A stretch of 26,852 nt of DNA from a virus. Positions 17,377-21,817 of the stretch are shown here, one piece after another (within the stretch, counting starts at the first letter, position 1; each line of letters begins with the position of its first letter). The stretch covers positions 1 through 26,852 of IMG/VR virus record IMGVR_UViG_3300020055_001934. One strand, written 5' to 3'. Position numbers and translations under genes: made by a program. The notes under the pieces are model-generated. The model saw nothing but the letters and a program-made list of their open reading frames with translations. It had not been told where the DNA came from and did not search any database.

Positions 17377-17823
17377 TTACTTATAAACTTTGAATGGAGC
17401 AGTTCGGTTTAGATATCCATCATAATCTTTTCTGAAATCTTCTAATCGAGGTTCAATATCATCTGATTTAATAATCCAGAATTGTGCACCAGCCGATTTT
17501 GCCTTTTCAATTTCTTGTTTGTCATCTGATGAAGATATAATTCCGATTACACACCCATTACCATATTCGAAATTGATTTTACGAATCAACTCAATCCCAT
17601 CAAAGGATGAACCGATTATATTTAAATCAACGAATACACACTCAGGTCTATCATCATCATTGTTATCAGGAAACCATTCTTTAAATTTTTTATCAGCTTC
17701 ATCGGAAGAGTTAAGTGCTTCCAAAGATAAAGTGATATCTAAGATACTACAAGCATCTTCAAATACTAAGTGGAATAAATCCTCATCATCCACCAGTAAG
17801 ATTGAGTTAATCATTTCATTCAT
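17377..17823 (-). CDS. receiver-only response regulator
   Basis: A 148-residue CheY-like receiver domain with no output domain. Acidic pocket residues D12 and D13 sit in ILLVDDEDLF. The phospho-acceptor is D66 in CVFVDLNIIGSSFDG. The conserved Ser/Thr is S98 in GIISSSDD, and Lys119 lies in WIIKSDD. All elements needed for phosphorylation are present. The gene overlaps the histidine kinase by four bases (ATGA), so the pair is translationally coupled and almost surely cognate. Without a DNA-binding domain it must act through protein contacts. Candidates from context are the next membrane protein, the 176-residue protein or the sigma factor, all unproven. Confidence 0.88.
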   Translation of the reverse strand: MNEMINSILLVDDEDLFHLVFEDACSILDITLSLEALNSSDEADKKFKEWFPDNNDDDRPECVFVDLNIIGSSFDGIELIRKINFEYGNGCVIGIISSSDDKQEIEKAKSAGAQFWIIKSDDIEPRLEDFRKDYDGYLNRTAPFKVYK

Positions 17824-19052
17824 TTTAAATTAATTCTTAATTTAGTGCCGTTATTTAATTTTTCGGCTGTTATTCCAAAACCATGTTCATTCAGAATTGC
17901 GATACAAATATTTAATCCCAATCCAGAACCCCCCTCTTTTTGTCCTTCTTTTCTTGTATATGGTTTGGATAACTCAATGAACTCATCATTAGTAATCCCC
18001 CTCCCATTATCTTCTACACACATTGTTGAGTTATTTTCCATATAAACTCTAACCATCTTTGTACTACTATCGTTATACTTTAATCCATTTCTGATTAAGT
18101 TATCTATTGCCGTACAAAAGAGTGGTTCGTTTACTGGTGTGGTTGGTAATCTCTCTATCTTAACTTGTGAGATATAAGATGTAGAAGATAAATAGTTTCT
18201 AAGTATCTCAGCAAGGTTACATTCTACCATATCTAATTGTGCATCTTCCTTTACCAAATTGGTAAATTCTTTTACACCTGAATACACTTTCTGAGTATGT
18301 CTTAATCCTTCCTCTAACATTCGTAGTGGAGAACCTATTTTTAATTCTTTAATTTTTTCTTCCGATAATCTTCGTTGTAAGGATGATAATCCTCTTGGCA
18401 TATATGTGTTGATACCACTATGCATATCGTGTCGGAGAATCTTTGCAGCATGTTCTAAGTAAGAGTTTTTCTGATTAACTTCTACCTCTGCTAAGTGTTG
18501 TAGTGTTGTATCGGTTGCTATCTTTAGAACTCTATCATAACCACCATTAATACTTTTAATAGGAGTATAATTACCAAACAACCAAACAGAACTTCCATCT
18601 TTTGCTATTCGTTCAAACTCACCACTTATATTTTCTCCTCTTTTTAATCTTTGCCAAAACTCTCTATATTCCAAACTTTCTCCATATTGCTTTGGAACTA
18701 ATGTTTTATGTTGTTTATACTTCAAATCCTTTTCAGTACATTTCATTGTACTACAAAATTTTGAATTAGCTTCTAAAACATAGCCATCCATATCCAACAT
18801 TACAACTAAGTTTGATTTATCAATTGCTGCTAGTTGTAAATCAATATTCTTTTCTTTGAGTTTTGTACTTTTTATGAAATTATATATGACGTAAGCAAAT
18901 GGTGGTATAAATAAAATTATACAACCATATCCAAATTCAGCTAAAAGATAAGAAGGTTCTAACCATCTGAATATAATACAAGTTTGTACTATAAAAAAGA
19001 TGAATATAATAGAACCCGCTATGCCTAAACATATTTTTGCGAACTTATTCAA
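17820..19052 (-). CDS. membrane sensor histidine kinase with PAS domain
   Basis: A 410-residue kinase. Two membrane helices (residues ~9-29 and ~40-62) are separated by only a short loop, so no large extracellular sensor exists. A PAS domain follows at ~75-185 (VVMLDMDGYVLEANSKFC, KDGSSVWLFGNYTPIK). The dimerisation/phosphoacceptor helix carries H208 in KILRHDMHSG. The ATPase domain has the N box with N318 and N322 (AIDNLIRNGLKYN), G1 (D348-NGRG) and G2 (GGSGLGLNI, ~374-382). All catalytic motifs are intact. The start codon is TTG, with an in-frame TGA 18 bases upstream and no ATG before the membrane helices. It heads a four-gene operon behind a nested inverted repeat. Signal unknown. Confidence 0.88.
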   Translation of the reverse strand: MNKFAKICLGIAGSIIFIFFIVQTCIIFRWLEPSYLLAEFGYGCIILFIPPFAYVIYNFIKSTKLKEKNIDLQLAAIDKSNLVVMLDMDGYVLEANSKFCSTMKCTEKDLKYKQHKTLVPKQYGESLEYREFWQRLKRGENISGEFERIAKDGSSVWLFGNYTPIKSINGGYDRVLKIATDTTLQHLAEVEVNQKNSYLEHAAKILRHDMHSGINTYMPRGLSSLQRRLSEEKIKELKIGSPLRMLEEGLRHTQKVYSGVKEFTNLVKEDAQLDMVECNLAEILRNYLSSTSYISQVKIERLPTTPVNEPLFCTAIDNLIRNGLKYNDSSTKMVRVYMENNSTMCVEDNGRGITNDEFIELSKPYTRKEGQKEGGSGLGLNICIAILNEHGFGITAEKLNNGTKLRINLK

Positions 19053-19147: not shown

Positions 19148-19867
19148 TTAGTAAGAAAAGAACTCATCTTCATCTTCAGTATCTTTGACTTCACCATAAT
19201 CCAAATAATCATTTAGCATTTTCTTTTGGTGGACTTTCATTACATTTACAACCTTAGTAATGTAGTGAGTTTTACAATCAGTCATTTCTCTGATTAGAAG
19301 ATACAAATGTTTTTTGTTGAAGTTTTCAATATATTGACTTCTTCTGAATAATTCTAAGATAGCATCTGCTATTTGAATATCTCTTTTCTTTGTAAATATT
19401 TTTGTTAGATTCTTATCCCAATACTTTAACATAAGTTGTTTAAACTCACTAAACTCATCCCCCTGCTCTCTATGATAAAAATCATCTTCGGGATTCCAAG
19501 TTTGTGGCATTTGGGATAATAAATCAGTTTTCTTATATCTTTTATAGTTTGAATTATTGTTTAATATAAGATAATTTTTTGCTACAATAGAAAAATAAGA
19601 GAACGCCTTACCCTTACCTTCTTTGAACATATGAATTTTTTGAATTAATATAGCAACTACCTCTTTTTGTACATCTTCTTTTGGTACATCAAAGTAGGAG
19701 AACTTAAATGTGTTTAAAATATTTTCTGCTAATTTTTCAAATGGATATTTAATTCTCGTACGATACAATTCATTTTTTTCTTTATCGTTTGTAGAGTTGT
19801 TATACGCTATAATCGCATCTTGCGTATCTTGTGTAAAATATTGTTTGTTTTTTCTAGGTCTTGGCAT
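19148..19867 (-). CDS. putative late sigma factor, T4 gp55-like
   Basis: A 239-residue protein matching the layout of T4-type late-transcription sigma factors (gp55), which are small relatives of sigma-70 region 2. A basic N-terminus (MPRPRKNKQYF) is followed at ~38-72 by KYPFEKLAENILNTFKFSYF and KEDVQKEVVAIL. Residues ~85-115 give KGKAFSYFSIVAKNYLILNN, then YKRYKKTDLL. The AFSYFSxxAKNYL core corresponds to the region 2 helix of this group. The C-terminal half is helical with aromatic and charged residues and an acidic tail (DTEDEDEFFSY). It follows the small membrane gene by three bases. It would direct host RNA polymerase to phage late promoters; the ATATTTATATA elements are the obvious candidates. 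Confidence 0.72.
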   Translation of the reverse strand: MPRPRKNKQYFTQDTQDAIIAYNNSTNDKEKNELYRTRIKYPFEKLAENILNTFKFSYFDVPKEDVQKEVVAILIQKIHMFKEGKGKAFSYFSIVAKNYLILNNNSNYKRYKKTDLLSQMPQTWNPEDDFYHREQGDEFSEFKQLMLKYWDKNLTKIFTKKRDIQIADAILELFRRSQYIENFNKKHLYLLIREMTDCKTHYITKVVNVMKVHQKKMLNDYLDYGEVKDTEDEDEFFSY

Positions 19868-19870
19868 ACT

Positions 19871-20143
19871 TTATAAATTGTTTTGATACTTTTCAATGAT
19901 ACCTTTTAATTCTTTGAAAACCACCCCAACCTCATCATCTGATTCAAATGAACCTCTAATATCTATTTGTTTCATCTCTTCCTGCATTTTTGTTAGTGTT
20001 TCAATAGTTTGTTCATTAATAGTATCAGATTCGTTTATAGCATCTTCAACCTGTCTAACTAATTGAGTCCCTCTGTAAATGAAGAAAATATTTGAAAGTG
20101 TTAATACTCCAATAATAATATATAATATGTAGATTGTTTCCAT
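19871..20143 (-). CDS. small single-pass membrane protein
   Basis: A 90-residue protein with one N-terminal membrane helix (residues ~4-24, IYILYIIIGVLTLSNIFFIY), followed by a basic residue and a soluble helical domain. The pattern IDIRGSFESDDEVGVVF near residues 59-75 is distinctive and I recall it from small proteins of other T4-like phages (unverified). The middle (ESDTINEQTIETLTKMQEEM) is likely coiled coil. Cotranscribed with the sigma factor, three bases apart. Probably anchored in the inner membrane with its C-terminus in the cytoplasm. Function unknown. Confidence 0.75.
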   Translation of the reverse strand: METIYILYIIIGVLTLSNIFFIYRGTQLVRQVEDAINESDTINEQTIETLTKMQEEMKQIDIRGSFESDDEVGVVFKELKGIIEKYQNNL

Positions 20144-20192: not shown

Positions 20193-20441
20193 TTATGCTT
20201 CACCTTTTTTTCCATAAAAAGGTATTCCATTAATTGATAATTCAAAATTATCATCCTCATCTTCAGTCAATTCAATTTTTTCATTATGAATTTCTTCAGA
20301 TAACTTTTTAATTCTTTCTAAAATTCTACTATCCAATCTTTTTGAATTTATTAATTTTTCTTCTATTAATTCATCTACTAATGATTCTAATATAATTTCT
20401 AAAGTTGCTAATTTTTGTTCTAATATAAAAAGTCTATTCAT
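20193..20441 (-). CDS. small charged helical protein
   Basis: An 82-residue protein, mostly a long charged helix (FILEQKLATLEIILESLVDE, RLDSRILERIKKLSEEIHNE) with heptad spacing, so a coiled-coil dimer is likely. It ends in an acidic segment and a short hydrophobic motif (FELSINGIPFYGKKGEA). It starts three bases after the stop of the 83-residue gene and is the last gene of the uvdE-led operon. Family not recognised. Confidence 0.65.
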   Translation of the reverse strand: MNRLFILEQKLATLEIILESLVDELIEEKLINSKRLDSRILERIKKLSEEIHNEKIELTEDEDDNFELSINGIPFYGKKGEA

Positions 20442-20444
20442 TAA

Positions 20445-20696
20445 TTAGGTTGTAAGGGAACCAGTTAGTTCACTAACCGATTTCATAAATTCTTTAAAAT
20501 CTCTATCCGATTCCGTTTCGTAATCTAAACTACCAAACGCATTCTTAACAGAATTATGATGATAACCCATTGCGTGTGCCAATCGAACACACATAATCTT
20601 ATATTCATAAATATTCATATCATCAGGAACATCGAATGAAATGTTTTTTGCTTCCCTATTTAGGGAATCTTCTGATTCGTAACTAAAAATTCCCAT
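20445..20696 (-). CDS. small conserved-looking phage protein
   Basis: An 83-residue soluble protein. It contains DVPDDMNIYEYKIMCVRLAH and MGYHHNSVKNAFG, a helical domain with paired His and Cys residues (C36, H40, H45, H46). This might bind metal but has no canonical site. The end is FKEFMKSVSELTGSL. I recall similar small phage proteins with the MNIYEYK and GYH elements but cannot verify the family. It follows the deformylase-like gene by two bases, within the same operon. Confidence 0.65.
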   Translation of the reverse strand: MGIFSYESEDSLNREAKNISFDVPDDMNIYEYKIMCVRLAHAMGYHHNSVKNAFGSLDYETESDRDFKEFMKSVSELTGSLTT

Positions 20697-20698
20697 AA

Positions 20699-21277
20699 CT
20701 ATACTAATTTATATCCTTTATCTAAAAGAGGTTGTGCTTTTTTGTATTTAACAAATTCCATATCTCCTTCAGGTGATTGTAACATTACTCTTTCGTTTCT
20801 ACCTGGCTTCTTTTCAACTTTTCTTTCTTGGCTATATCTTCGTATAGGTGAGTTTATATCAATACCATCAATTGAATCGATTAATCTTTGTGCGGTAATA
20901 CATTCGAACAATCCCAAATCATTCATAAACTCATCTTGATTTTTCCAAGTTTCTTTATCTGATGAAAATTCTACAATACCTAAATTATCAGTATCTACTT
21001 TAAAAGATTTATGTCTTACTGTTTTTCTAATTTTATTTTTCTTAAAAGAATCTTTTTCAAAGTACTGAACCATATCATTTGAGGTTTCAGTAACTTTTGG
21101 ATTAACTAAAGTTAAATCTTCATAATCACCACCAAACTTAATCGTAACAATTCTTTTATCCATACCAACATCTAATGCGGTAACTGCAAACTCTTTATCT
21201 AATTTAGATATTTTTTCTTTATATAGGTTTAACTCTTCGTTTGTAACGGGAGTTCTTTCAACTCTTTTTACTATCAT
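20699..21277 (-). CDS. degenerate peptide deformylase-like protein, predicted inactive
   Basis: A 192-residue protein with the peptide-deformylase order of motifs but altered catalytic residues. Motif 1 (GxxAxQxG in enzymes) reads TALDVGMDKRIVTIKFGG at ~33-50, with Asp36 where Gln stabilises the reaction. The LVNPKVTE strand (~57-64) is kept. Motif 2, EGCLS in enzymes, reads FEKDSF (~73-78), so the metal Cys is gone. Motif 3, QHExDHxxG, reads QRLIDSIDGID (130-140): the two His and the Glu are Arg131, Ser135 and Leu132. A C-terminal extension ends in FVKYKKAQPLLDKGYKLV. The frame is long and clean, so this is not a decaying pseudogene. It could bind N-terminal formyl-peptides or ribosomes without catalysis. 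Confidence 0.7.
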   Translation of the reverse strand: MIVKRVERTPVTNEELNLYKEKISKLDKEFAVTALDVGMDKRIVTIKFGGDYEDLTLVNPKVTETSNDMVQYFEKDSFKKNKIRKTVRHKSFKVDTDNLGIVEFSSDKETWKNQDEFMNDLGLFECITAQRLIDSIDGIDINSPIRRYSQERKVEKKPGRNERVMLQSPEGDMEFVKYKKAQPLLDKGYKLV

Positions 21278-21434
21278 AATATTTTTCTATTTCTTCGGTT
21301 AGGTAATCTACTGATTCTGAACTTCCGATAAGTGCTCCATACTTTGAATAGTATTCAATCCATTTATCTTTATCAGATTCAAATTGTTCTTTTAATTGAT
21401 ATATTTCTGGCACATGAACTTTTATGTAACTCAT
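21258..21434 (-). CDS. 58-residue acidic helical protein between cupin and deformylase-like genes
   Basis: An ATG at 21434 overlaps the cupin stop by four bases (ATGA) and opens 58 codons ending in TGA at 21258, which overlaps the next gene by 20 bases. The protein starts MSYIKVHVPEIYQLKEQFE, continues DKWIEYYSKYGALIGSSES and ends EEIEKYYDSKKS. Coupled overlaps at both ends and an amphipathic, protein-like sequence support a real gene filling what would otherwise be a 150-base gap in the operon. Family not recognised. Confidence 0.7.
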   Translation of the reverse strand: MSYIKVHVPEIYQLKEQFESDKDKWIEYYSKYGALIGSSESVDYLTEEIEKYYDSKKS

Positions 21435-21817
21435 AATAAATCCTCAGGTGTTTCTCTATAAACTCTATAACTATCTTCATCAAAGTGTTCAGTCGAAACC
21501 TCAAATACAATTGAGTTATCTTCTAATGAAATTAACTGATGAGGTAATCCTCTTTCAATTAAAACACTATCACCCTTCTCTAAAGTTTTACCTTCTAATT
21601 TTCCATCTTCTACATTCAACCAATTAAATTGAAATCTTCCTTCTTGTACATACCAACTTTCTTTTTTCTTTAAGTGGTAATGCATTGAAAATCTATTTCG
21701 TTCTTTTGTGAATACCAATAATTTCCCACAATACTCTTCATCGTTGTGAATCCATAGTTCATATCCCCAATTCTTTTCTACTCTCTTAGGAGCTTTAATA
21801 TCTACATCTATAATCAT
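21431..21817 (-). CDS. cupin, phosphomannose isomerase type II-like
   Basis: A 128-residue single cupin domain. The opening EKNWGYELW matches the KPWGxE motif at the start of the sugar-phosphate isomerase cupin domain. Metal-ligand candidates are H46, H48 and E53 (FSMHYHLKKKESWYVQEG) and H93 (RGLPHQLISLED). The length is that of a stand-alone cupin, similar to the C-terminal isomerase domain of bifunctional mannose-1-phosphate guanylyltransferases. It overlaps the uvdE stop and the next small gene by four bases each. A role in sugar-nucleotide or surface glycan metabolism is suggested by family, but many small cupins have other substrates. Confidence 0.75.
   Translation of the reverse strand: MIIDVDIKAPKRVEKNWGYELWIHNDEEYCGKLLVFTKERNRFSMHYHLKKKESWYVQEGRFQFNWLNVEDGKLEGKTLEKGDSVLIERGLPHQLISLEDNSIVFEVSTEHFDEDSYRVYRETPEDLL

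Follow-up and report, generated by a model that had tools for sequence, protein, structure and literature searches.

The window, a stretch of 26,852 nucleotides that covers positions 1 to 26,852 of the viral record IMGVR_UViG_3300020055_001934, contains on its minus strand an intact open reading frame of 192 codons with an ATG start (20699..21277). Coordinates and strand had been given exactly in the first-pass annotation. The encoded protein was recognized by the Pfam deformylase family PF01327 (E=1.6e-6, 28.2 bits, above the curated cut-off of 22.8); matches to the NCBIfam deformylase models were weak. Other members of the dead clade described below reached 27.6-30.9 bits with PF01327, and the L083 type stayed under the cut-off with 17.1 bits.

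In the alignment to active phage deformylases the order of the motifs is recognizable and the residues of the site are replaced. D36 (21170..21172) stands for the glutamine of motif 1 (GxGxAAxQ); aspartate was found in 19/19 distinct dead sequences, glutamine in the active ones. EKDSF (21044..21058) replaces E(G/Q)CLS, with D76 (glutamate in some relatives) in place of the metal-binding cysteine. At motif 3, QRLIDS (20873..20890) replaces QHExDH. HExxH accordingly reads R131-L132-I133-D134-S135 (RLIDA in the L083 type), and both metal-binding histidines and the catalytic glutamate are gone. All three segments lie on the minus strand. Thus, the protein is without the three metal ligands, the catalytic glutamate and the motif-1 glutamine, and carries D36, D76, R131, S135 and L132 instead. 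In E. coli numbering the replaced glutamine is Gln50. E74, R88, Q130 and G138, residues general for the family, are retained. The first-pass annotation had described the same three replacements and the loss of every metal ligand in an intact frame; the alignment confirmed this in place and detail.

The dead form was detected in 31 IMG/VR contigs, corresponding to 19 distinct proteins, including that of the window, with 62-88% identity. All 19 share D36, D/E76, R131, L132 and S/A135. Since the same losses occur in 19 proteins from 31 contigs, they are neither due to chance nor to one bad assembly, and an artefact of a single contig was rejected. Active relatives with 41-47% identity for most were found in more than 80 contigs (L093-L100, L180-L259, LR756508) and have an intact QCHEH site. 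No relatives of the close family were found in the bacterial genomes scanned, and single-sequence scans of IMG/VR with the LR756508 and phage OC proteins gave no matches. With the PF01327 match, an AF2 model and 31 contigs, the window protein is a peptide deformylase homologue with a dead site and is predicted to be non-catalytic.

At live and dead loci the gene order is deformylase, o83, TM, sigma-like, baseplate. The gene for o83 (83 aa, 20445..20696) lies directly downstream of the deformylase gene and, like the others of the block, on the minus strand. It is followed by the small protein o82 (20193..20441), by TM90 (19871..20143), a short protein whose N-terminal part includes a hydrophobic segment, and by the sigma-like protein (19148..19867), a possible late sigma factor. 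Orthologues of the latter were identified in LR756508 (48% identical) and Flavobacterium phage immuto (38%); its name is tentative, as Sigma70_r2 was matched with E=0.05 only, in one member. Beside the deformylase gene, o83, TM90 and the sigma-like gene are present in 31/31 dead and in 85-86/87 active contigs (85/87 for o83, 86/87 for TM90), and o82 in 31/31 dead and 35/87 active contigs. The gene had been described as embedded in an operon, and a conserved gene block was indeed present in all 31 dead contigs. For o83 no family match over the cut-off was obtained; it is a possible partner of the deformylase homologue.

Further genes were observed around this block. The first 7 codons of the deformylase gene overlap a 58-aa open reading frame at 21258-21434. 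A cupin gene (21431-21817) adjoins the dead deformylase in 29/31 dead and, within the flanks examined, in 0/87 active contigs; this distribution may reflect descent only. A PAS histidine kinase (17820-19052) and a response regulator (17377-17823) are located between the sigma-like and the baseplate genes, and both are present in 9/31 dead-lineage contigs.

In the 484-kb phage LR756508 the deformylase site is intact (SAIQ, EGCLS, QHETDH). This protein ends in the same tail as the window protein, and its gene lies upstream of a matching block with sigma-like, spike, gp25 and gp6 genes. The block was also found in Flavobacterium phage immuto, the closest named phage whose host is known to belong to the Bacteroidota; there, the deformylase family profile gave no match. 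Similarity of gp6 (38-43%) links the window to LR756508, immuto and Microcystis phage Mel-JY01, and on this basis a host among the Bacteroidota is possible for the window phage. The dead form is carried by a group of T4-like phages, most of them marine. No second deformylase was detected in two dead-lineage contigs of 252 kb and 271 kb, which are metagenomic and may be incomplete; each large contig searched gave one match.

The AlphaFold model was calculated from 55 family members and reached a pLDDT of 87.3 and a pTM of 0.71. This alignment consists of IMG/VR loci and the window and contains active deformylases, which pull the model towards their fold. An earlier model from 14 close relatives only, without the active ones, was poor (pLDDT 51); its best fold matches were still deformylases. 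With Foldseek, deformylases occupied all 50 best ranks against the PDB (E from 6e-6, probability 1.00), and the TM score by target length was 0.66-0.67 for the window model and the deformylase of phage S-SSM7. Significant named matches in the viral library included deformylases as well. Hence, the objection that a structure model might not superpose on deformylases, raised in the first-pass annotation, fails. In both AlphaFold models the tail forms a beta hairpin and a helix with a pLDDT of about 85.

In a tree of 101 proteins the dead sequences form a clade with 100/100 support, nested in a larger group of tail-bearing deformylases, mostly with intact QCHEH site. With 2.37 changes per column, the clade has a long stem branch, and thus the change was old and large. 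The median pairwise dN/dS was 0.21 for the dead clade and 0.19 for the active relatives, by counts of the Nei-Gojobori type that are rough at these distances. The dN/dS check proposed earlier thus indicates purifying selection, with the dead site kept. Loss of all catalytic residues and the long stem branch would also be expected of a decaying pseudogene. Against decay, however, the frame is open in every copy, dN/dS is 0.21, the tail is almost invariant and the block is intact in 31 contigs. A decaying pseudogene is refuted as far as sequence can refute it, and we regard this explanation as extremely unlikely. Recent decay in particular was rejected: relatives with an intact site do exist (L093-L100, L180-L259), yet the loss is old and fixed across the clade. 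Taken together, the window protein is almost certainly a pseudo-deformylase that arose from an active enzyme of phages and is kept by selection.

The mean conservation of motifs 1 and 2 was 0.68 in the dead clade, compared with 0.95 and 1.00 in the active proteins. The motif-3 helix QRLIDS had a conservation of 0.99, the 99th percentile of the dead-clade core, and the tail was the best conserved section with 0.94 versus 0.79 for the core. Judged from these alignments, constraint has moved in the dead clade: it has weakened at motifs 1 and 2 and is retained at the motif-3 helix and the tail. At the former active site, D36, E74, R131 and D134 make up a new set of invariant polar residues, which could belong to an enzyme that is still active with an unusual site, using another metal or another chemistry. 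But three metal ligands and the catalytic glutamate are lost together with the conservation of motifs 1 and 2, and other dead lineages have different replacements; such an enzyme is very improbable. On the nucleotide level, the tail codons (observed/expected 0.34-0.58) and the first 30 codons showed depressed synonymous change, an effect restricted to the dead clade. The tail has no conserved alternative reading frame, and an overlapping frame as the source of its synonymous constraint was not supported.

The C-terminal tail GRNERVMLQSPEGDMEFVKYKKAQPLLDKGYKLV comprises 34 residues (159-192; 20702..20803, minus strand). It is common to the dead clade and its active relatives and corresponds to the SEC-C tails that related deformylases of phages carry. 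The first-pass annotation had counted the C-terminal extension in favour of a new function. As the extension is present in intact relatives, it predates the loss and is no argument for a new function. What stands of that proposal is selection for a non-catalytic role: the dead site, the purifying selection and the conserved block make it the natural reading, and the extension drops out as support.

Among active phage deformylases, a neighbouring group carries at the same place either a KYKKA-type tail or a true SEC-C motif (PF02810). PF02810 was detected in the L108 deformylase with E=1.1e-9 and on at least 42 of the best 80 relatives of L108; three more (L261, L275, L283) were recognized by reading. 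None of the best 80 cellular deformylases, a non-exhaustive sample, had a KYKKA-type or SEC-C tail. On a tree calculated from the core only, the tail type switches about 15 times, and at least 6 switches are forced by well-supported branches (L260-L339 group). Compared with L335, L339 has the stop codon of a KYKKA tail directly followed by DNA that nearly matches the final codons of SEC-C and the gene downstream. L328, compared with L275 and L283, has the same arrangement. The DNA after the stop in L339 and L328 is a relic of tail replacement.

The window-type tail (GRNE...KYKK) and the SEC-C tails share the frame GRN[DE]...K[YF]KK. No cysteine is present in the window tail, so the metal ligands CxC...C(C/H) of SEC-C are absent. 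PF02810 gave no match in the window protein nor in four large related contigs, and the tail profile scored 0.4 bits against the SEC-C-tailed L108, which is not significant. The link between the two tails is thus drawn from position, shared frame and exchanges, and not from a profile score. From the alignments, exchange at one position is shown, and common descent of KYKKA-type and SEC-C tails is possible. Within the examined loci, the tail was not recognized with a significant score in any other protein. A tail-only search of phage records led to tail proteins of Kagunavirus with E about 1 and above; these matches were insignificant and were dropped.

In SecA, the SEC-C domain by itself binds to 70S ribosomes and can be crosslinked to uL23, and modification of its metal-binding cysteines abolishes ribosome binding (PMC6620043). 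Ribosome binding of the E. coli deformylase requires the C-terminal helix, which viral deformylases usually lack (PMC5591237). The first-pass annotation had suggested nascent peptides, the ribosome or the host deformylase as partners. Through the exchange with SEC-C and the ribosome binding of the SecA domain, the ribosome appears to be the best of the three. The missing metal-binding cysteines of the window-type tail, together with the cysteine requirement in SecA, count against ribosome docking. Furthermore, most phage deformylases, including the active Vp16 enzyme, are without ribosome-binding extension (PMC5591237); contact to the ribosome need not matter.

From these observations the following course emerges. 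The ancestor was an active phage peptide deformylase carrying a C-terminal, probably docking, tail. One lineage lost the metal site together with the catalytic glutamate, in a single burst of change, and purifying selection has since kept the dead protein at the same locus. The tail may still position the protein at the ribosomal exit region. There, the deformylase fold might occupy the position of the nascent chain or of the host deformylase while the formyl group is not removed, and N-terminal processing in the host could thereby be competed with or timed. This mechanism, in which a pseudo-deformylase with a docking tail acts non-catalytically, with the ribosome or the nascent chain as its most likely site, has about an even chance of being correct. 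A wider version is more tentative: phage pseudo-deformylases in general may dock at the exit tunnel via an interchangeable SEC-C-type tail and block or retime host N-terminal processing, and active ones may use the same tails for targeting. This is conceivable but less likely than not.

The fold could also bind another partner now, a virion, transcription or repair protein, away from the ribosome, with the tail as a general protein-protein module. The sigma-like gene, o83 and the baseplate genes of the block would fit such a partner, as would a tail without metal ligands. Moreover, two other phage deformylases with a dead site, from Ochrobactrum phage OC and Rhizobium phage RHph_I1_18, have no such tail and adjoin gp46-type recombination nuclease genes. 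However, active deformylases occupy the same position in the block, so that the gene context gives no explanation for the loss, and the tail is the same as on active enzymes. We consider this explanation possible but rather unlikely. An inhibitor or decoy acting on the host deformylase by direct contact, e.g. as heterodimer or by sequestration, and not via the ribosome, would agree with a retained fold and lost catalysis; in other families, regulation of the live enzyme by a dead paralogue is common. On the other hand, deformylases are mostly monomeric, and no interface was identified in this analysis; a decoy is improbable.

With the locus held either by an intact enzyme or by a fixed, selected dead version, deformylation cannot be the whole of its contribution. 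The exchangeable tails, zinc SEC-C and metal-free KYKKA, point to ribosome targeting as part of its role. Docking at the exit tunnel, if true, would be a step of takeover at the level of the ribosome that is new to description. In ocean metagenomes, deformylases of phages rank among the viral genes reported as most abundant, as a paper on viral deformylases states with reference to earlier work (PMC5591237). In the open full-text literature searched, no paper was found that joins SEC-C with deformylase or pseudoenzyme with peptide deformylase.

Three further deformylases were identified as dead. At the five sites the protein of Ochrobactrum phage OC has M, C, R, A, A, that of Rhizobium phage RHph_I1_18 has Q, S, Q, L, I and that of the IMG/VR locus L105 has T, -, Q, M, L. 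On the tree, 4 changes are needed for the loss of the site and 3 are forced by starred branches, a count that is uncertain on account of very long branches. According to the tree, these three probably lost the site separately from the window clade, with uncertain placement. Like the window protein, they are annotated or recognized as PF01327 and have lost the metal residues. Unlike it, the proteins of OC (L008 2887-3381) and RHph_I1_18 (L033 1312-1893) have no GRN tail and other neighbours. Both are site-less proteins that annotation pipelines name 'peptide deformylase'.

Compared with known systems, the window protein resembles the deformylases of S-SSM7 and Vp16 (PF01327, PHROG 2890) in having a homologous fold, being phage-borne and occurring in a single copy per record searched. 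In these enzymes motifs 1 to 3 are intact and the C-terminus is very short (PMC5591237), whereas the window protein has no metal site and a tail of 34 residues. The viral deformylases described in PMC5591237 are short and active; inactive Type 3 forms are mentioned there for archaea and trypanosomatids. The Type 3 proteins of archaea and trypanosomatid mitochondria, with substituted motifs and weak or no activity, are cellular and are likened to the window protein by description only. SEC-C (PF02810, the SecA tail) agrees with the window-type tail in its place, the GRN[DE] start and the K[YF]KK core, but the window-type tail has no cysteine ligands and is longer. The deformylases of L093-L100, L180-L259 and LR756508 share tail and gene block with the window protein, but QCHEH is intact in all of them.
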